A stretch of 64,000 bases of DNA from Clytia hemisphaerica (lineage: Eukaryota > Cnidaria > Hydrozoa > Leptothecata > Clytiidae): NCBI GenBank assembly GCA_902728285.1, contig CACVBU010001363.1, positions 186,001 to 250,000 of the forward strand, given 5' to 3'. The notes below the pieces were generated by a model. That model worked only from the letters and a program-made list of their open reading frames with translations. It ran no database searches and was not told the origin of the DNA. This document shows positions 25,112-63,174 of the stretch, piece after piece. The first letter of the stretch is position 1. Every line of letters starts with the position of its first letter. The translations under genes and the position numbers were made by a program.

Positions 25112-25762
25112 ATGGTTACAACAGACGCGACGCAACAACAAACAACCGCTGAAAACACCCCGACACACACAACGTCTGGTTGTAAGAAAGTCGTGGTCGT
25201 CGGTGATGGAAGTTGTGGGAAGACGTGTTTATTGATGTCTATAATCGAACGTGATGCACCTGACGGCTACGTACCCACAGTCTTCGAAACGTACGTCAAA
25301 GAAATCGACCACGGAAAAACGTCGTATGAAGTATCCTTTTACGATACGGCGGGACAGGATGTTTATGATCGCTTACGGCCGTTATCGTATCCCGATACAG
25401 ACGTTTTCTTAGTATGTTTTGCTGTGGATTCCCCGGACAGTTTATATAATGCTTATGATAAATGGACACCTGAGGTTAAACATTTCGGACCTAACGTACC
25501 ATTTGTCTTAGTAGGGACCAAATGCGATTTACGTAGTGATGAGAGCACGTTGAAGAGATTACGTAAAGCTAAACAAGAAGTCATTACGCAAGAAGAAGGA
25601 CGGGAAATGGCGAAAAAGCTTAAAGCTTCTGCTTACGTAGAATGTTCTGCGTTGACGGGGTTTAACGTTAATGAAGTAATTAGTACGGCGTTGAAATCAG
25701 CCCTCAAGAAGCAACACAAACAATTGAACAAGTTGAAGCAATTAAGGTGCACTTTCTTGTGA
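25112..25762 (+). CDS. Rho-family small GTPase
   Basis: The 216-residue protein cycles between GTP and GDP states to control actin and membrane dynamics at the plasma membrane. It shows the full G-box set: P-loop GDGSCGKT (31-38), switch I YVPTVFETY with effector Thr56, switch II DTAGQD (78-83) with the catalytic Gln82, TKCD (136-139) and ECSAL near 175. A Rho-specific insert helix follows LRSDESTLKRL. The C terminus is basic and ends CTFL, a CAAX box whose final Leu predicts geranylgeranylation. It differs from typical Rho by a hydrophilic ~24-residue N-terminal extension, rich in Thr and Gln, and by Asp where most have Glu after the switch II Gln. The coding region has no intron. The ATG at 25112 is the first in the exon. 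Placement within Rho, Rac, Cdc42 or a divergent branch needs a tree. Confidence 0.95.
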   Translation: MVTTDATQQQTTAENTPTHTTSGCKKVVVVGDGSCGKTCLLMSIIERDAPDGYVPTVFETYVKEIDHGKTSYEVSFYDTAGQDVYDRLRPLSYPDTDVFLVCFAVDSPDSLYNAYDKWTPEVKHFGPNVPFVLVGTKCDLRSDESTLKRLRKAKQEVITQEEGREMAKKLKASAYVECSALTGFNVNEVISTALKSALKKQHKQLNKLKQLRCTFL

Positions 25763-32417: not shown

Positions 32418-33240
32418 GAGTAATTTGGCTAAGAACATTGATGTATGCTTATTATAGTGATTCTTATAGATAAAGATGCGTTTTTTGAGCTGAAAAATTA
32501 TTTTTTTACAAAAATCTGCTTGACCATCTTTTACCTACTTCCATGCAAAAAATCAGAAAAAAACAATGATCCAATACTTCACAAAGTCCAAAAAACTCTT
32601 TTTTTAGCCGTTTTTTGGCCCAAATTTACTCAAAAACATTTTTTTTTCGAAAATTAGGCTTCGTTAAATTTGATGGTTTATAGTTATGCATCTTTGTGCA
32701 AAAATCATAAAGAATGAAAGAGCCACTCTTGAGAAAAGTTAAAACCCAAGTAATTGATAATGCGCTTATAAAAAAAGATCGAATTTGGCCAGTTTTTCTA
32801 TAAAAACAATAAGCCCTCATGAGCAGGAAAAAAATCTTGAGTAATTTGACTAAGAACATTGATGTATTCTTAGTAATAGGGATTCTTATAGATAAACATA
32901 CATGTTTTGAGCCAACAAATTTTTTTTGCAAAAATCTGATAGAACCATTTTTTACCTATGATGGTACCCTACTTTCATGTAAAAAAATTAGAAAAAATTA
33001 ATGATCCAATTTTTCACAAAGTCCAAAAAACCGTTTTTAGTCGTTTTTTTGGCCCAAACTTGTCCCCAAATTTATTTTTCGAAAATCGGGCTCCGTCACA
33101 TTCGAGGGTTTATAGTTATGCATCTTTGTGTAAGAAATCATAAAGAATGAAAGAGCCAATCTCGAGAAAAGCTAGTAACTAACGAACGAACGGACGAACG
33201 AACATACAACGATTAATTTATAGGACCTCCACCGGGGTAG
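32418..33240. repeat. 421-bp unit repeated in tandem
   Basis: Two units begin with GAGTAATTTG(G/A)CTAAGAAC at 32418 and 32839 and align through TAGTTATGCATCTTTGTG. A partial third copy is at 37078-37195. Unit 2 ends in a short (AACG)n tract (33178-33204) and the block ATAGGACCTCCACCGGGGTA. Overlapping short frames on both strands are repeat-derived. Confidence 0.75.
33178..33204 (+). repeat. (AACG)n microsatellite
   Basis: It holds about six imperfect GAAC/GGAC tetramers. Confidence 0.6.
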
Positions 33241-33328: not shown

Positions 33329-34049
33329 TTAAGGGCTCTGACCATAGTGAAATTTTCATAGTTGCCGTGTTTAAAATGTGTTTTCTGACTGATGTAACCA
33401 ACAAAACTATGGCATGTTATACATTTTCTGTTAGACAAACTATTCCTGAATCTGAAAATTTAAAAATTGCATTGAAAAAATTTGATGAAGAAGCAAATGA
33501 AGACTTTTGCAAGGAAGAGTATTTCAACTTTGAAGAGCTTAGTTTCGGCGAAGAAAAAACATTTTGAAAATTTTTTCGCAGTAGATGGTGTATCTTTTAC
33601 CGAACAATAAAAAATTTTGCGGAAAATTTTTTTAAATGCTTCTTTGTCTCAAAATCTTCAAAATAGTGGATTTTCATCAATTTTTCATCTGGATTTTGCT
33701 TAAAAAAACAGTCATAACTTTTGACACATCTTTTTAGAAAAATTTTCCGCAAAATTTAAAATAGTTCAATTCTTTGCGGACAGTTTGAAAAAACTTCGAA
33801 ACAAAAAGGTTAATTACCCATTAAAACTTAGCACTTTTTATAAAAGAAGGTGATGCAACATATTATTAACGTCTTTTTAAAGTTCATAACGTCATTTTTG
33901 CAATTATAAGTTCTTAATTACTCTTAAGGGATTTGATTAAAAAGCAATTTATAAATGCAATTCTTTGTTAAAAGTGTTAAAGAATCTAAAACATAACTTT
34001 CATGTTCAGATACTAAAATCAATTTTCCGACTATGGTCAGAGCCCTTAA
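33329..34049 (-). mobile_element. TTAA-flanked non-autonomous DNA transposon, copy 2
   Basis: This 721-bp inverted copy of the element at 1872-2590 has the same TTAA-GGGCTCTGACCATAGT ends. It carries a 66-codon open frame (33367-33567) matching that of copy 1. The two differ at five sites in the frame, all of which change the amino acid. That is compatible with neutral drift rather than coding constraint. Confidence 0.85.
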
Positions 34050-34127: not shown

Positions 34128-35777
34128 CTATACTACACAGGGTTCAGTTTCCTTTTTCACCACGATTAGGTTTGTCATGCATCTAAGGTAATAATTACAT
34201 TCATGTTCTTCTACAGGCCAATTTAAGAAGCGGCCCACAAACGAGATCACTGTAGGCCACTCAAATCCTATGACCGATCGGCTGGAAGCGAACAGAAATT
34301 TGCCATCGCATAGGTACTTGTATGGGCTTTCACCTTCACTAAAATCGTTTTGGGCCAATGGTTTCATATCATAAAATTTCCATTCTTCTTGCACCTGATC
34401 TAAAAAATTGGCAAACGTTACGAGTTCTTTAGTGTTATCAAGAATGCATAGAATACCAAGATTCGATTGTTTTCTTGCCAACTGTACCGCCTCCTTAAAT
34501 GTATTGACAAACGTTGGTGGACAGCCAGAAGGAAAGTTGGCAGGTGGCATCTTCACACCTTCCTTGTAAGAATAAATTTTTTGCTCCGCATGTTTCTTCA
34601 CCATCTCAACAATTGCTCTGCTATTTCGTAAATTTTGTGATAAATTTAGAAAGAGGAAATTATTACGAAGGATATTTTCTAGACCTGCGTACTGACTTTC
34701 GGCATTTGGTGCGACCCAGATAACCTCGACGAGTTTTAAAAGACTATCGATCAAACTGTCCTTCACTAGCCAACTTACTGCGCACTCATCAATCAACAAG
34801 GCTTTTATATCATCATTTTGAATCTCCTTCACCATTAAGTCAATATCTGGTGATTGTACTCTCAATTCGATTCCACACTGGTCAAAATCGTGTCGTAATT
34901 TATGGTAAATCAAAGATTTAAGTGCACTTATTCTTGCAAAAGTTATAAACATTACACGACCTTTGAAATCCGGTAATTTGCTGAGCATAATGGCTTTTTC
35001 CTGTAACAAAAATTTCTTACCGACTCCAAATCCACCTTGTATTACTAGTTTCTTGTACGCAAGATCATTGCTGGTCAACACTGGAAGCTGTTGAGTAGAG
35101 TAAAATAACATATTGTTGCTATTCGAGACAGTTTTGATGACTTCAGTGATATAATCGACCCAATTTGATGCAATGAGAGGCGTTTTGAGGTTCTTTTTCG
35201 ACAGGTGGATGGTAAAAACAATGATTCGAATGATCTTTTTGAGATTCCCCAACGATAAAGTGATGTCTGCTTCACCGAGAACTGGGTATTTCTTCAGGAT
35301 GCTTGATAACCAGATGTTTATATCGCTGTCACTGTGTACATAATGATGATTTTGAAATCCTACTTGGTCTTTCTGAACACTGATGACCGGAAAGAAGGTC
35401 CAGCCAGGACCAAGCTGATCACTTAGTCCTTCTTCAAAAAGTCTATAGTAAGTGTTTAACTGTTTGAAAGCAGTGTCTGTCAGCTGCCTTTTTGATTCAA
35501 TACCAATTAGCAGTTTGTGTGCAGGAAAGAAAATGAGAAAATCAAACTCCTGATGCTTGTTGCTAACAATGTCGGTGAGAAACGTAGCTGAACGAAGGAT
35601 TACCGCATTTTGTAGGCAGGCTTCATCTTTCAAGGATACTAAATCATCGAAGCAGCAGTGCTCACCTTCTTCACCAGTTAACTCAGCAATGTCAAGTCCG
35701 AAAAACCATTTCAGATTGAAATCAATTGGAGAGTTATTTTCGATCAGTTTTTCAATTCTTCGTCGAAAGGCTTTCAT
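34128..35777 (-). CDS. Nuclease/helicase-like P-loop protein, main reading frame
   Basis: The 549-residue intronless frame is not assigned to a named gene. Residues 79-96 hold D79 followed by IGIESKRQ with E94 and K96, the D-(x)n-ExK signature of PD-(D/E)XK and NERD-type nucleases. A superfamily-1 helicase-like core follows: Walker A QGGFGVGKK (247-255), Walker B LLIDE (327-331), a UvrD-like NLRNS (382-386), IGFEWPTVI (503-511, like the usual GxEx(D/P)xVI) and YLRCMTNLIVV (530-540) where motif VI belongs. Walker A has Lys where Ser or Thr is usual and motif VI lacks its Arg, so helicase activity may be lost. In bacteria such nuclease-helicase fusions act on DNA, often in defence; the animal role is inferred only. 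The frame continues upstream past a TGA (35781-35783) into 35781-36446. It lies just downstream of the TTAA element at 33329-34049. Confidence 0.75.
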   Translation of the reverse strand: MKAFRRRIEKLIENNSPIDFNLKWFFGLDIAELTGEEGEHCCFDDLVSLKDEACLQNAVILRSATFLTDIVSNKHQEFDFLIFFPAHKLLIGIESKRQLTDTAFKQLNTYYRLFEEGLSDQLGPGWTFFPVISVQKDQVGFQNHHYVHSDSDINIWLSSILKKYPVLGEADITLSLGNLKKIIRIIVFTIHLSKKNLKTPLIASNWVDYITEVIKTVSNSNNMLFYSTQQLPVLTSNDLAYKKLVIQGGFGVGKKFLLQEKAIMLSKLPDFKGRVMFITFARISALKSLIYHKLRHDFDQCGIELRVQSPDIDLMVKEIQNDDIKALLIDECAVSWLVKDSLIDSLLKLVEVIWVAPNAESQYAGLENILRNNFLFLNLSQNLRNSRAIVEMVKKHAEQKIYSYKEGVKMPPANFPSGCPPTFVNTFKEAVQLARKQSNLGILCILDNTKELVTFANFLDQVQEEWKFYDMKPLAQNDFSEGESPYKYLCDGKFLFASSRSVIGFEWPTVISFVGRFLNWPVEEHECNYYLRCMTNLIVVKKETEPCVV

Positions 35778-35780
35778 TCC

Positions 35781-36446
35781 TCATTTTCTTGAGAGTCTCA
35801 AGAATAAAGTTTGAAATTCTGTCACCAGAGAAGACGTTGGCGATAATGTATTCAGTTTATTGATACAGACTTGCAGGAGAACGTCAGTTCTTGTGTTAGC
35901 TGCTGCAGATGTCAAGCGAAGATTGTCAATCTTCAAATAATTGAGCGTTAGGTACATGATTTTAATGTTTAATATCCATTTCCTGAACTCATTTTCTCTG
36001 ATGATATCCTCGCGAGGATGGCTGGCGTTTTGAAGGTGTAGAAATGTTTGTAATTCAGAGGTAAGCCAATAGGTTGGTGAATTTCGTGTCAAATTTGCGA
36101 GGGTTTTCTGCATCTGTTCTTTGATGTTATAATCAAGGACAGCTGTATCGTTAGATGATTTTTCATATTCTACAGATTGAAATACAGGTGGGATGAAGAT
36201 AGGTTGTTGTTTTGTGGTATCAAACAAAAATGTATCACCATGTTCTCTGGCCAGTAAATGATCTGCAGCTTGTAAAGGGTCGGTGAAAGAGTGACCATTC
36301 CCCAGATTAAATTGAACGGTCTGTTGATCCAGTCGTTCTTGTGAGCTATTCAAGATCTGGTGGTAAAGCGATGTGCCAGAATTGCAATTAGCAGGATCGA
36401 TGCTTTTTGGTTTCAAAGTCAGCAATTTGTTTTGAAAATTCGACAT
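35781..36446 (-). CDS. N-terminal frame upstream of the nuclease/helicase ORF, same frame
   Basis: This frame of about 221 residues from the ATG at 36446 (or 239 from 36500) ends in TGA. After that stop come one GGA codon and then the ATG of the 549-residue frame, all in the same register, so a single TGA divides what looks like one ~770-residue protein. It has no recognised domain: an N-terminal hydrophilic half (around FNLGNGHSFTDPLQAADHLL), then helical, leucine-rich sequence to LRLSRK. It could be one protein read through or recoded, two cistrons, a recent nonsense mutation or a base error. I favour one gene with a disrupted or uncertain base, because the spacing is a single codon and codon use is alike on both sides. 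Confidence 0.65.
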   Translation of the reverse strand: MSNFQNKLLTLKPKSIDPANCNSGTSLYHQILNSSQERLDQQTVQFNLGNGHSFTDPLQAADHLLAREHGDTFLFDTTKQQPIFIPPVFQSVEYEKSSNDTAVLDYNIKEQMQKTLANLTRNSPTYWLTSELQTFLHLQNASHPREDIIRENEFRKWILNIKIMYLTLNYLKIDNLRLTSAAANTRTDVLLQVCINKLNTLSPTSSLVTEFQTLFLRLSRK

Positions 36447-36500
36447 GTTCTTTACTCGTATACCTCTAACTTTAAACTCTGAACATAGATACATAAACAT

Positions 36501-37077
36501 TTATTTCTCTACTAACACAAAAATACGAAAATTTATTCATACTTTCAAGAATAATTATCTCCCCTTTCGCAAAATAAATGGTATTGTTACGTCACATTTC
36601 TTATCATGATCAAATTTTCAACAAAAGGGCTTAATTATATCATGTTTCGCTATGTAATATAGATAAATGTTTCTTGCTTGTAAAATAAAAAATTGCCGTT
36701 AAAAAGCATCAATAAGTATATATGCTCTAAAATTTCAAATTTCAAATCTCAAAATCTAACAATACAGCTGAAGTAATTCTAACAAAAGTAAATCAAATGA
36801 CTAAACGGGTAAACAAATTTAGCCGGTGACTTTAAAAATTAAATTTGTTGGGAATTCAATTTGCCCTAAAATAGCACACATTTGGGGAGAGAAAGCAATA
36901 GTTTAAATTTGGCGGATGGCAGGAAAATCAGGTCACATCTTGGGGCAGGTTTCACATCTTAGGGCAGGGCTTACATCTTGGGGCTGCACACCGTACCCTC
37001 CATTTGCCTAAGTACCACCTCCCACCTATTCTCCCGCCTATTCTTCAAAAGTAAGCCCGTGAGAAAAAAAATTGATT
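36501..37077. other. Upstream region of the nuclease/helicase gene
   Basis: It is AT-rich and non-coding. No clear TATA box or initiator is visible. A CATCTTGGGGCAGG-like motif repeats three times near 36935-36985. Confidence 0.3.
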
Positions 37078-37195
37078 GATGTATGCTTATTAATAGTGAT
37101 TCTTATAGATAAACATGCGTTTTTGAGCCAACAAAACTTTTTTGCAGAAATCTGCTTGAGCCATCTTTTACCTATGATGGTACCCTACTTTCAAA
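37078..37195 (+). repeat. Partial third copy of the 421-bp repeat
   Basis: TGATGTATGCTTATTAATAG through TACCTATGATGGTACCCTAC matches units at 32418 and 32839. Confidence 0.7.
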
Positions 37196-55761: not shown

Positions 55762-57147
55762 ATGAGGATTCGGAAAGATTTTTTGACAATCAGTTTCTTT
55801 TTCATAATGGTGACTGGAGTTGCAGCTGAAGATGGTTGTAACGTCATCAACTGTAAATGTGACACTGCAGGTAAAAGAGTTTATGATTGCGTCAACGTCA
55901 ATGATACGATTCTAAGAATGATCGCTCAACAGATCAATAACGATACAATAGATTTGAGTATCACTGGACAGAATTTAACAACGTTTGATGCACCCTTTTA
56001 TCTTGAGAACTTGAACAATCTCGATTTAAGCGGGAACTCGTTTAAAAGAATCCCTGAAAATTTAGCCAAGAAGTTTCCAAAACTTGGAGTATTGGAGCTG
56101 AAGGATAATTCAATTGATAAACTGGATCCAGAAGATTTTACAGGGTTGAGTAATTTGAATAAACTCAGAATGGATCGTAATCTTTTGACTGAAATTAAAG
56201 GAGGAACCTTTATCGAGCTGAAGAATCTGAAACAGCTATATGCCGATGAAAACCAAATTGAAACATTATCTGCCGATTCCTTCTCTGGTGCATCAAATCT
56301 TTTGAACATCGAAATGAAAAAAAACAAAGTCAAGAGCCTCCCTGTTGGAATCTTCGACCCATTGAAACCAAACAACCAATTGAAAATCGAACTTACAGAA
56401 AACTATCTGACTGAAATTCCAAATGGATTATTTACAAAATTAACAGAGTTCCAATTCATCCTTGCAGACAAGAATTTATTGACGAAGATTGGAGACACAG
56501 CGTTTCAAGGAGTGCGTGCATATGCCATCAATATCAAGGATAACAAAATAACTGAACTCTTGAAAAGCACTTTTGAAGGGGCACAACTTCAAATTCTTCA
56601 AGTAGATGATAATCCAATCAGATGCCAATGTTCCTTGAAAGATCTACACGGCCTTGTGGATCAAATGACTGGAACGTGCATCAATAAAACTTCAGCGGAA
56701 ATAGACTCAGCTGAATGGATTCGAGAAGAGTTGTGTAATGAATGCGAGGTTAATAACACTTGCCAGCATGGAGGTATCTGTGTACCAGTAGGCAAGATGG
56801 ATATCAACTGCAAATGTATTAATGACTACCACGGGAAGAATTGCCAGGATAAACCAATATGTGAATCTGTAACTTGCCAAAACAAGGGAACTTGTAAGAA
56901 TCTCAGCCCCTCTAACTACACTTGTGAATGCAAAGATAATTATTCTGGCAACCATTGTGAGATTTTTAACGAGGACAACAGTTTAACGGTTGCAGAGATC
57001 GTTGGGATTGTGCTTGGTGTTTTGTTGTTTTTCATTCTGCTTGTGGTGATTTATATGCTCTGTAGAAAGAGATGTCAAAAGGGTGGAGACGGAAAAGCTA
57101 AAGCAGGAGAAGGTGTACCTTTGAAAGGAGGCCCTGTCTCTGCTTGA
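55762..57147 (+). CDS. LRR-EGF-EGF single-pass membrane protein
   Basis: The 461-residue type I surface protein has a signal peptide at about 1-22 (hydrophobic, after MRIRKD) and a Cys-rich LRR N-cap (CNVINCKCDTAGKRVYDC). About eight leucine-rich repeats follow (75-285, for example LNNLDLSGNSFKRIP), then an LRR C-cap (CQCSLKDL to LC). Two EGF-like modules come next (about 329-362 and 366-401, each with six Cys), then a membrane helix (VAEIVGIVLGVLLFFILLVV, about 412-436) and a ~25-residue Lys/Gly-rich tail. The order recalls Slit-type and other adhesion or recognition receptors, but no specific orthologue can be named. The coding region is one exon. The tail has no obvious signalling motif such as TIR or ITAM, so it may work through partners. 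An adhesion or pattern-recognition role is inferred. Confidence 0.93.
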   Translation: MRIRKDFLTISFFFIMVTGVAAEDGCNVINCKCDTAGKRVYDCVNVNDTILRMIAQQINNDTIDLSITGQNLTTFDAPFYLENLNNLDLSGNSFKRIPENLAKKFPKLGVLELKDNSIDKLDPEDFTGLSNLNKLRMDRNLLTEIKGGTFIELKNLKQLYADENQIETLSADSFSGASNLLNIEMKKNKVKSLPVGIFDPLKPNNQLKIELTENYLTEIPNGLFTKLTEFQFILADKNLLTKIGDTAFQGVRAYAINIKDNKITELLKSTFEGAQLQILQVDDNPIRCQCSLKDLHGLVDQMTGTCINKTSAEIDSAEWIREELCNECEVNNTCQHGGICVPVGKMDINCKCINDYHGKNCQDKPICESVTCQNKGTCKNLSPSNYTCECKDNYSGNHCEIFNEDNSLTVAEIVGIVLGVLLFFILLVVIYMLCRKRCQKGGDGKAKAGEGVPLKGGPVSA

Positions 57148-60904: not shown

Positions 60905-61294
60905 ATGAAATTGCTCAAACTATTGATCATTCTTTTGTACACCACTTTGTGGCCAAGACCAAGATTGTACCCTCACTTTGTTAATGTAACTGATGTGAGC
61001 TTTTGCCCTCCGACACGCTTCAAGCAAGAAGTTATATTTTCCATATTCCACGCTTACTCAACAAACTCATCCTACATAAAATCAACTGCTCACTTGATAG
61101 ACTTGCTACTAGTCTTGAGTGGTCAAATCGAGATCAGTCCTGGCCCACCTGTCAAATTTCCCTGTGGTGAATGTTCTTCAGCTGTTAGATGGGGACAAAA
61201 TGCAATTGCCTGTGACACTTGTAATCGCTGGTTCCATGCATACTGCATAATGCATACATGCATACTGCATCCAAATGAACAGTGTAATGTATGA
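60905..61294 (+). pseudogene. CR1/L2-like LINE: N-terminal region with PHD-type finger
   Basis: The frame holds a hydrophobic start, a variable region, then SGQIEISPGPPVKFPCGECS and a PHD-type zinc-finger segment (CGECSSAVRW, CDTCNRWFHAYC). This arrangement, an xIExxPGP motif just before a PHD finger, is known from CR1/L2-like LINEs of invertebrates. A short GCATACTGCAT duplication near 61230-61270 breaks the finger and shifts the frame into the endonuclease frame (from 61275). Confidence 0.75.
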
Positions 61295-62273
61295 TATCTA
61301 TCAAACAAACAATGATCTGGAATGGGAATGCTGCAACTGTGGAGTGAAAAACATCAACCCATCACCTTTTGATAGCTCACTTGATTCATCAACTGACTCT
61401 AACCTATCTCCGCAAAGGGGTATTCCTAAAAGAACTCCAACACAACTTAAACTGATGTGCATAAACTTTCAAAGTATTTGGGGAAAAAAAGAGCAAATAG
61501 AACAGGCTCTGTTTGAGGACAATGTTGATATTATTATTAGTAGCGAAACTCATCTTGACAGTAGCATCAAGGACTCTGAATTCATTCCACCAACATACAA
61601 ATGTTATAGACGTGATCGAGACGATGCAAAAGGCGGTGTGATAATCATTGCAAAGAAAGACCTGGTCATTGAGGAAGTGAAGAAATCCAAAAAATGTGAA
61701 TTTATTGCAATCAAGGTTCAAACACACCAGAGACCAGTCATCATAGCAGCATGTTACAGACCTCAAAAATCCAAAATTGGTGAAACAACATTCATCTGTG
61801 AAGAAATCAAATCTCTAAACTCTTCCTTTAAAAACTGCCCTCTATGGATTGGTGGTGATACCAACCTTCCGGATATTGACTGGGTAAATGATGCCATCAT
61901 TGATCATAATTACAAAAAAGAATCGTTTTTAGATACCTTTAAATAATGCTGCCTTGAGCAAATTGTTTTGTTCCCAACCCGAGTTAATAATATACTTGAC
62001 ATTATTGCCACTAATCGACCATCATTTGTAAACAACTGCATCCCTCATCCTGGTCTCAGTGATCACGAAACAGCTGTGTTGGTTGATATTGCCTGTCATC
62101 CAAAGAGATCAAAATCTATTAAAAGGAATGTATACCTGTGGAAAAGGGCAGACCTAAACACGATAAAAGACCATGTTAACTCCGAAATGACCAACTTCAT
62201 GGCAAACAACGATACAACCACACCAATGATCAACTATGGTCTAGTTTCAAAATGCTTGTCGATTTTTCAATGA
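61275..62273 (+). pseudogene. LINE apurinic-type endonuclease domain
   Basis: One register holds the exonuclease-endonuclease-phosphatase fold of a LINE: NFQSIWGKKEQ, SSETHLDSS, GGVIIIAKKD, CYRPQKS, IGGDTNLPDIDW and GLSDHETAV, with the catalytic Glu, Asp and His of SET, GDTN and SDH all retained. It is cut by in-frame stops TAA at 61944-61946 and TGA at 62271-62273. The domain would nick target DNA to prime reverse transcription. Confidence 0.85.
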
Positions 62274-62276
62274 GTT

Positions 62277-63174
62277 TTGTTCCTTCAAAAACAACTTCAC
62301 CTCGATATACGCAACCATGGATCACAACCAAATGCAAAAGAAAGAGCTTGTAAACGTGCTAAACGAACAAATAGACAAGAAGACTGGAACAAATTTAAAG
62401 TACTCACCGCCAAATCAAGGAAAACCTGTAGAGCAGCATTTAACAATTATGTAGTGAAATGTGTTGATCCCGGAGAGAACAACAATCCCAAAAAACTGTT
62501 TACATATATAAAATCTCGTAAGTGTGATAATGATGGTGTTGCCCCTCTAAATGATAAGGCTCACATCCACATTGATGACAAAAAGAAAGCAGACTTACTG
62601 AACCATCAATTCTCCAGTGTTTTTTCTAAACCAGATGGACGCATCCCTCCAGTCATTGGTCAACGTTGCATAACTATGCCAGACATAACTATCAATATAG
62701 CAGGTGTCAAGAAACTTTTGAAAGATCTCAACCGAAACAAAGCATCTGGTCCAGACAATGTCTCCTCTAAATTCCTAAAGGAGCTTGGTAATGAAATCGC
62801 ACCTGGACTAACATTTGTAATGCAGGCATCCATGCTGCAGTCAATGACTCCAAAGGACTTGCTTCATGCCTTGGTTGCCCCAGTCTTCAAACCAGGGAAA
62901 ACAGACCGAGCCAAAGCTGAAAACTACAGGCCTACAATGGTATAACATAACTATAAGCCTAACATCAGTATCATGCAAGATATTTGAGCATATTCTTCAC
63001 AGTAATATCATCTCCCACCTTGATAAAAACAACACACTAACTGATACACAACATGGCTTTCGGAAAAATCGTTCATGTGAATCTCAGCTTTTACTCACCA
63101 TTAATGACCTTGCAAAATCGCTTAATGAGGGAAGTCAAATCGATTTCATTTTGCTTGATTACGCACGGAGCGAG
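62277..63174 (+). pseudogene. LINE reverse transcriptase, 5' part only
   Basis: The same register continues into reverse transcriptase blocks: NKASGPDNVSSKFLK, APVFKPGKTDRAKAENYRP. A small insertion or frameshift near 62938-62955 then moves ITISLTSVSCKIFEHIL and QHGFRKNRSCESQLL into another frame (62866-63180). The homology stops at IDFILLDYA, before the catalytic xADD box, where unrelated sequence (GAGCGAGCGTTAGCGAGCG) begins. The 3' half is therefore missing. Confidence 0.85.

Follow-up and report, generated by a model that had tools for sequence, protein, structure and literature searches.

A probably decaying copy of a large nuclease and SF1 helicase-like gene family in Clytia hemisphaerica, with helicase loops that may have diversified as a sensor

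Organization of the locus

We analyzed a stretch of 64,000 nucleotides from the hydrozoan Clytia hemisphaerica (GenBank assembly GCA_902728285.1, contig CACVBU010001363.1, positions 186,001 to 250,000), hereafter the window, in which a gene for a predicted nuclease domain fused to a superfamily 1 (SF1) helicase-like module lies on the minus strand. Two open reading frames (ORFs) in one register, 34128..35777 (549 amino acids) and 35781..36500 (239 amino acids, with its likely start at the Met at 36446), are separated only by TGA (35783..35781) and GGA before an ATG, exactly as the original prediction had described. The reading that we favor by a modest degree is that this locus represents a decaying member, without the intron, of a large and otherwise mostly open hydrozoan nuclease-SF1 family, whose helicase loops have diversified as a sensor.

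The upstream frame encodes an N-terminal domain of ~220 amino acids (35784..36446, minus strand), for which no Pfam family match was obtained; it shares 37-45% identity with the domain at the same position in relatives L010-L016 and L018-L028, and the structure predicted for this domain in L022 is mostly helical. At the in-frame TGA (35781..35783), the sister copy L009 has GGA and the joint is free of stops in the 17 relatives with one open frame. Based on the ORF and the family alignment, the 549-residue frame (residue numbers below refer to this frame in the window copy) was divided into a PD-(D/E)XK-like nuclease domain at residues ~17-165 (35283..35729), containing E39, E77, D79, E94, K96 and Q106, and an SF1 helicase-like module with motifs I to VI at residues 240-541 (34155..35060), which was delimited by structure prediction and fold matches. 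The Walker A sequence GGFGVGKK (35013..35036) has Lys255 in place of Ser/Thr, and the Walker B residues Asp330-Glu331 lie at 34785..34790. Most blocks of the SF1 module were predicted by AlphaFold2 with confidence scores (pLDDT) of 70-95, and its structure matches included SLFN11/SLFN14 and UvrD.

Family size, domain order and motif conservation

When the genome (417.4 Mb, 951 contigs) was searched with the 549-residue protein, 91 stretches matched at E 1 or better, 86 of them without an internal stop, and at least 79 loci, the window locus included, matched the first part of the query (79 of 255 candidates scored). The nearest copy, L009 on contig C229, was 82% identical, and the remaining first-part matches were 40-49% identical. 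Some copies lie in clusters, with neighbors ~4-26 kb from each other, and others are dispersed. The order N-terminal domain, nuclease and SF1 module on one strand was found in all 20 loci L009-L028 (21 copies), and a single open frame spans the N-terminal domain and the nuclease in 17 of the 21, which supports the earlier view of a single fusion protein. L009 and L017 are broken copies, and the two domains lie in separate frames in L016 and L028, probably due to an intron; L027, one of the 17 open-joint copies, has a stop further on in the nuclease.

All 16 copies with a located junction have, between motif Ia and Walker B, an intron of phase 0 with GT..AG ends and a length of 165-583 bp. In 14 of them the first frame has 513-556 codons, and in the other two (L016 and L028) 335-342 codons. 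This intron is absent from the window copy, where its site would correspond approximately to 34836..34844 (the junction region is hypervariable), and from L009.

Thirty-six nuclease exons and 31 helicase exons were complete in one frame, and 30 copies were complete for both; L017, L019, L027, L030, L037, L041 and L042 are not among these 30, and L001-L003 and L005-L008 duplicate other loci. The E / D / ExK plus Q pattern of PD-(D/E)XK active sites was found in every nuclease exon, E39, E77, D79, E94, K96 and Q106 being invariant (36/36). Thus, the nuclease signature D79, E94 and K96 proposed for the window copy is present and is not a chance motif. The Walker A Lys was likewise invariant (36/36), and the following position was Ser in 25 copies, Thr in 10 and Lys in the window copy only, so that the previously noted substitution is both real and private to this locus. 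Walker B Asp-Glu was found in 31/31 helicase exons, and the motif VI Arg in 30/31. The claim that motif VI had lost its Arg was not borne out: in the family this motif follows N-x3-R-C-T-x-N-L, and the window copy, with NYYLRCMTNLIVV, keeps the Arg. It departs instead in having Met at 534, where 29 of 31 helicase exons have Thr. The two RecA-like lobes of SF1 helicases and motifs I, II and VI are recognizable, whereas conservation is lacking in the nucleic-acid motifs Ia, III, IV and V, where most positions are hypervariable between close paralogs; for this reason we do not claim helicase activity. Judging from sequences and predicted models, each full gene encodes a helical N-terminal domain, followed by a PD-(D/E)XK-like nuclease whose active-site pattern is complete and by an SF1 helicase-like ATPase with a fold closest to Schlafen group III and UvrD.

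Two further observations were made on family architecture. The second exon stays open for ~350-470 codons beyond motif VI in L018 (1228-3450), L022 (4384-6258) and L023 (4359-6497), which may represent a C-terminal extension in some subfamilies. In L040, synonymous divergence (Ks) from L016, L032 and L033 was 0.22-0.26 in the nuclease exon and 0.74-0.97 in the helicase exon, a mosaic that suggests exon exchange or conversion between paralogs.

Divergence of the window copy from its sister

The window copy and L009 were 89% identical over 2,416 alignment columns; L009 has GGA for TGA and GKT for GKK, and an 11-nt deletion shifts the frame in its N-terminal domain. After removal of a TTAA-flanked element, both copies have a common 3' flank, and hence they are probably products of a duplication at the DNA level. 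An origin as two independent retrocopies was rejected on the basis of this common flank. No homology between the 5' flanks was found beyond ~40 bp before the start, a simple search returned no target-site duplication, and no poly(A) tail was seen. The missing intron may reflect an ancient retrocopy, intron loss or the ancestral state, given that the tree is unrooted. The element itself, at 33329..34049 outside and 3' of the gene, resembles a miniature inverted-repeat transposable element (terminal inverted repeat GGGCTCTGACCATAG, TTAA target duplication). Because the corresponding site in L009 is empty, it was probably inserted after the duplication. A direct repeat of ~120 bp (80-90% identical; 32858-32977 and 37075-37193, ~4.2 kb apart) also flanks the gene.

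The ratio of nonsynonymous to synonymous divergence (Ka/Ks) between the two copies was 0.54 over the 549-residue part (0.25 for residues 1-150, 1.14 for 150-230 and 0.99 for 300-420) and 0.40 over the N-terminal domain, indicating that constraint persisted into their separate history. On the other side of the ledger, the branch of the window copy was longer than that of L009 (0.153 vs 0.074 in one unrooted tree), and the window copy departed from strongly conserved sites more often than any other copy (11/78, followed by L023 with 10/74); eight of these 11 sites also differ in L009, and three are private to the window. Judging from the TGA, the Walker A Lys, the long branch and the conserved-site departures, the window locus is probably a recently decaying copy and a pseudogene, in which the TGA would have severed the N-terminal domain from the nuclease and the Walker A Lys would probably have abolished ATP handling. 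Selenocysteine insertion or programmed read-through at the TGA was set aside in view of the GGA in the sister copy. No Rfam match at gathering scores was found within the window.

Selection on the helicase loops

Among 22 pairs of paralogs with Ks below 0.25, Ka/Ks of the helicase exon exceeded that of the nuclease exon in every pair, as it also did in nine of the nine more distant pairs listed, and it was above 1 in five of the 22 close pairs. Replacements were then counted per site in seven clades, which cover 20 of the 30 copies (the remaining ten lack a close partner or, in the case of L040, have a mosaic history). They pile up in seven loops and one patch: residues 282-286 at motif Ia (34920..34934), 333-339 after Walker B (34761..34781), 360-370 at motif III (34668..34700), 446-455 at motif IV (34413..34442), 471-475 (34353..34367), 498-500 at motif V (34278..34286) and 514-526 after the motif V strand (34200..34238), and the patch at residues 400-403 (34569..34580), away from strand ends. 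With helicase motifs placed by eye alongside UvrD, most hypervariable stretches correspond to motif Ia, the segment after motif II, motifs III, IV and V, and the loop after V. The same module has conserved P-loop, DE, NLRN and GFEW motifs.

So that the estimate would not be circular, columns were picked in six clades and evaluated in the one held out, using simple counts. At a threshold of 0.15, the held-out ratio of nonsynonymous to synonymous changes (dN/dS) was 1.79 (bootstrap 1.43-2.32), and 1.78 (1.37-2.56) when indel neighborhoods were masked. The ratio was 1.82 and 1.90 at 0.20 and 1.41 at 0.12 (masked 1.34, 0.99-1.74), the remaining helicase columns showing 0.49-0.60; at 0.10 the ratio was 1.20. 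Six of the seven clades were above 1 at every setting, the exception being L020/L029 (0.36-0.67); when the clade of the window copy and L009 was left out, dN/dS at 0.15 was 1.71, with five of six clades above 1. Synonymous divergence was similar at the selected columns and elsewhere (0.144 vs 0.128), a result that speaks against misalignment or conversion. As a control, the same procedure was applied to the exon labelled nuclease and returned 0.63, 0.89, 1.14 and 1.30 as the threshold rose from 0.06 to 0.15, its columns drifting to the motif Ia loop at the exon end (39 of 44 at 0.15); nuclease residues 17-240 alone gave 0.37, 0.50 and 0.31, with zero columns at 0.15.

In the predicted structure, dN was 0.213 in the seven residues after a strand (67 sites) vs 0.071 in the seven before (73 sites), a difference reached by 2 of 276 circular shifts. 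The loops after strands 243-247, 375-378 and 422-424 are exceptions to this rule and are conserved. These sequence comparisons suggest that the SF1 loops are under diversifying selection, perhaps as a sensor linked to the nuclease.

Interpretation and alternative explanations

In SF1 helicases, the loops at strand ends touch the nucleic acid. In the model that we propose, the SF1 module would serve as a sensor of nucleic acid or of invader proteins, with ATP binding and movement between the lobes kept through the conserved motifs I, II and VI, NLRN and GFEW. The strand-end loops would form the binding face and, by diverging between paralogs, could give each paralog a distinct specificity; engagement of the target might then permit cleavage of foreign or selfish nucleic acid by the fused nuclease. 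The model follows the precedent of SLFN11, in which the helicase domain is reported to recognize single-stranded DNA and a separate nuclease domain to be the effector (PMC12499436).

Relaxed constraint, under which the SF1 module is only structural and its surface loops drift without positive selection, would also produce variable loops, as loops commonly are. It gains from the fact that helicase-exon Ka/Ks was above 1 in only 5/22 close pairs, from the simple counting method, with an excess that falls to 1.2 at the loosest threshold, and from human SLFN14, whose SF1 module is described as ATPase-dead yet retained (PMC12499436). However, we consider it unlikely, given the held-out dN/dS of 1.8 with a bootstrap lower bound of 1.4 and six of seven clades above 1, the heavier variation in strand-end than in pre-strand loops, and ATPase residues that are invariant or nearly so. 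Another possibility to which we give little credence is a family engaged in conflict within the genome (anti-transposon, meiotic or selfish), with loops tracking transposon or drive targets and not immunity. Clusters with ~4-26 kb spacing plus dispersed copies, the nuclease and helicase architecture and the mobile elements around the window copy would fit such a role, whereas the introns of the relatives do not, and the comparison of the window copy with L009 showed no transposon ends framing the gene; overall, the evidence fits this role and immunity alike.

With regard to the window locus itself, the original prediction of an intronless, decaying or repurposed enzyme holds in part: the intron is absent and decay is probable, but the motif VI Arg is retained, and repurposing is now less favored. 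A functional gene for a domesticated, repurposed enzyme, read through the TGA or started at the next ATG as a shorter nuclease-helicase, could explain why both frames are otherwise open (239 and 549 codons), why Ka/Ks is only 0.25 over residues 1-150, and why an ATG follows the site at the same place in both copies. We nevertheless regard it as quite improbable because of the GGA in the sister copy, the private Walker A Lys, a branch longer than that of L009 and the frameshift in L009 itself. Fusions of the NERD/UvrD type are mostly bacterial, and weak PADLOC matches to AbiO, Nhi and GajB profiles were obtained for one or two of 21 relatives. A horizontal transfer in the recent past from a bacterial or viral source is still very improbable, since the scans of GTDB and IMG/VR, which required exact short motifs, yielded no relative, and a family of at least 79 loci that have introns wherever these were looked for points to long residence.

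Relation to known systems

Bacterial defence systems include fusions of a nuclease to a helicase, and Schlafens occur in vertebrates. When the window protein was the sole query, profile searches returned no useful match and none to NERD; with relatives as queries, matches were obtained to NERD (best E 5.6e-4, 3/21 members) and HSDR_N_2 (best E 0.0035, 4/21 members). The best profile matches of the relatives were to P-loop families (DnaA, 6e-7; nSTAND_NTPase5, 2.5e-5), which we regard as generic. Scans of GTDB and IMG/VR with the protein or the family alignment (A2) found no relative, although these required exact short motifs and could miss distant ones, and a viral fold library gave no match at E 0.001 or better, its top entries being phage nucleases.

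Compared with Schlafen group III (SLFN11, SLFN14 and SLFN5), the present family has a PD-(D/E)XK-like nuclease, which occupies the position of the Schlafen linker, not that of the N-terminal core. The family also differs in lacking a SWAVDL-type motif, which was seen neither in the window translation nor, in a pattern search, among the matched frames of L009-L028 (residues 204-209 of the window copy, S-N-W-V-D-Y, form a distinct motif), and in lacking a PF09848 match, none being found in the host genome at E 0.001 (among members, best E 0.0048 and 2/20 at E 1). It differs from the UvrD/Rep/PcrA SF1A helicases in having hypervariable residues at motifs Ia, III, IV and V, and hhalign found no sequence-level match between the SF1 block and UvrD. 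The E..D..ExK..Q pattern, and possibly the core topology, are shared with PD-(D/E)XK nucleases (Can2/Can1-type, McrC and Hjc; NERD and HSDR_N), and Can2/Can1-type, McrC and Hjc structures are among the nearest to the L022 model. Gabija (GajAB) and AddAB/RecB-type systems also couple a nuclease to a UvrD-type helicase; they are bacterial and have another nuclease or domain order, and GajB profiles reached E 0.01 at best, in 1/21 members. The cnidarian innate-immune families (NACHT-HEPN, TLR-like and RLR) are likewise large and lineage-specific but mainly anthozoan, whereas the present family is hydrozoan and built on an SF1 scaffold. No earlier description was found in the open-access library that was searched, subscription papers being outside its coverage, or in the available part of PMC3710099.

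If our interpretation is true, this would be a large animal family that keeps its PD-(D/E)XK pattern intact while its fastest sites fall at the usually most conserved SF1 motifs, a new design for a recognition repertoire. For the Schlafen linker, which is unexplained, it would also offer a candidate ancestor-like arrangement. Medusozoans are reported to be apparently without prototypical receptors (PMC8260672); this raises the interest of such a repertoire without proving it, and the family bears on what replaces the receptor families and would make that question testable in laboratory hydroids. The window locus, probably a pseudogene, is the least interesting member.

Additional observations

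On the mitochondrial contig (C900, 14,551 bp; L044/L045), cox1 reads well when TGA is decoded as Trp, AGA and AGG as Arg, and ATA as Ile, at sites which we take to be conserved positions. The gene extends past the end of the contig, as is the case in linear hydrozoan mitochondrial chromosomes. ORFs and one Rfam match gave the minus-strand order nad2, nad5, rns, nad6, nad3, nad4L, nad1, nad4, cob and cox1 (from the first 10 kb of the contig), in agreement with the collinear hydrozoan blocks described in PMC4655093. Code and gene order together point to a hydrozoan host of the subclass Hydroidolina.

Elsewhere in the window, inspection by eye revealed a Rho-family-GTPase-like single-exon ORF with its own N-terminal extension (25112-25762, plus strand), an ORF resembling a leucine-rich-repeat and EGF membrane protein (55762-57147), and LINE-like fragments with PHD-finger-like, endonuclease-like and reverse-transcriptase-like ORFs (60905-62945, plus strand).
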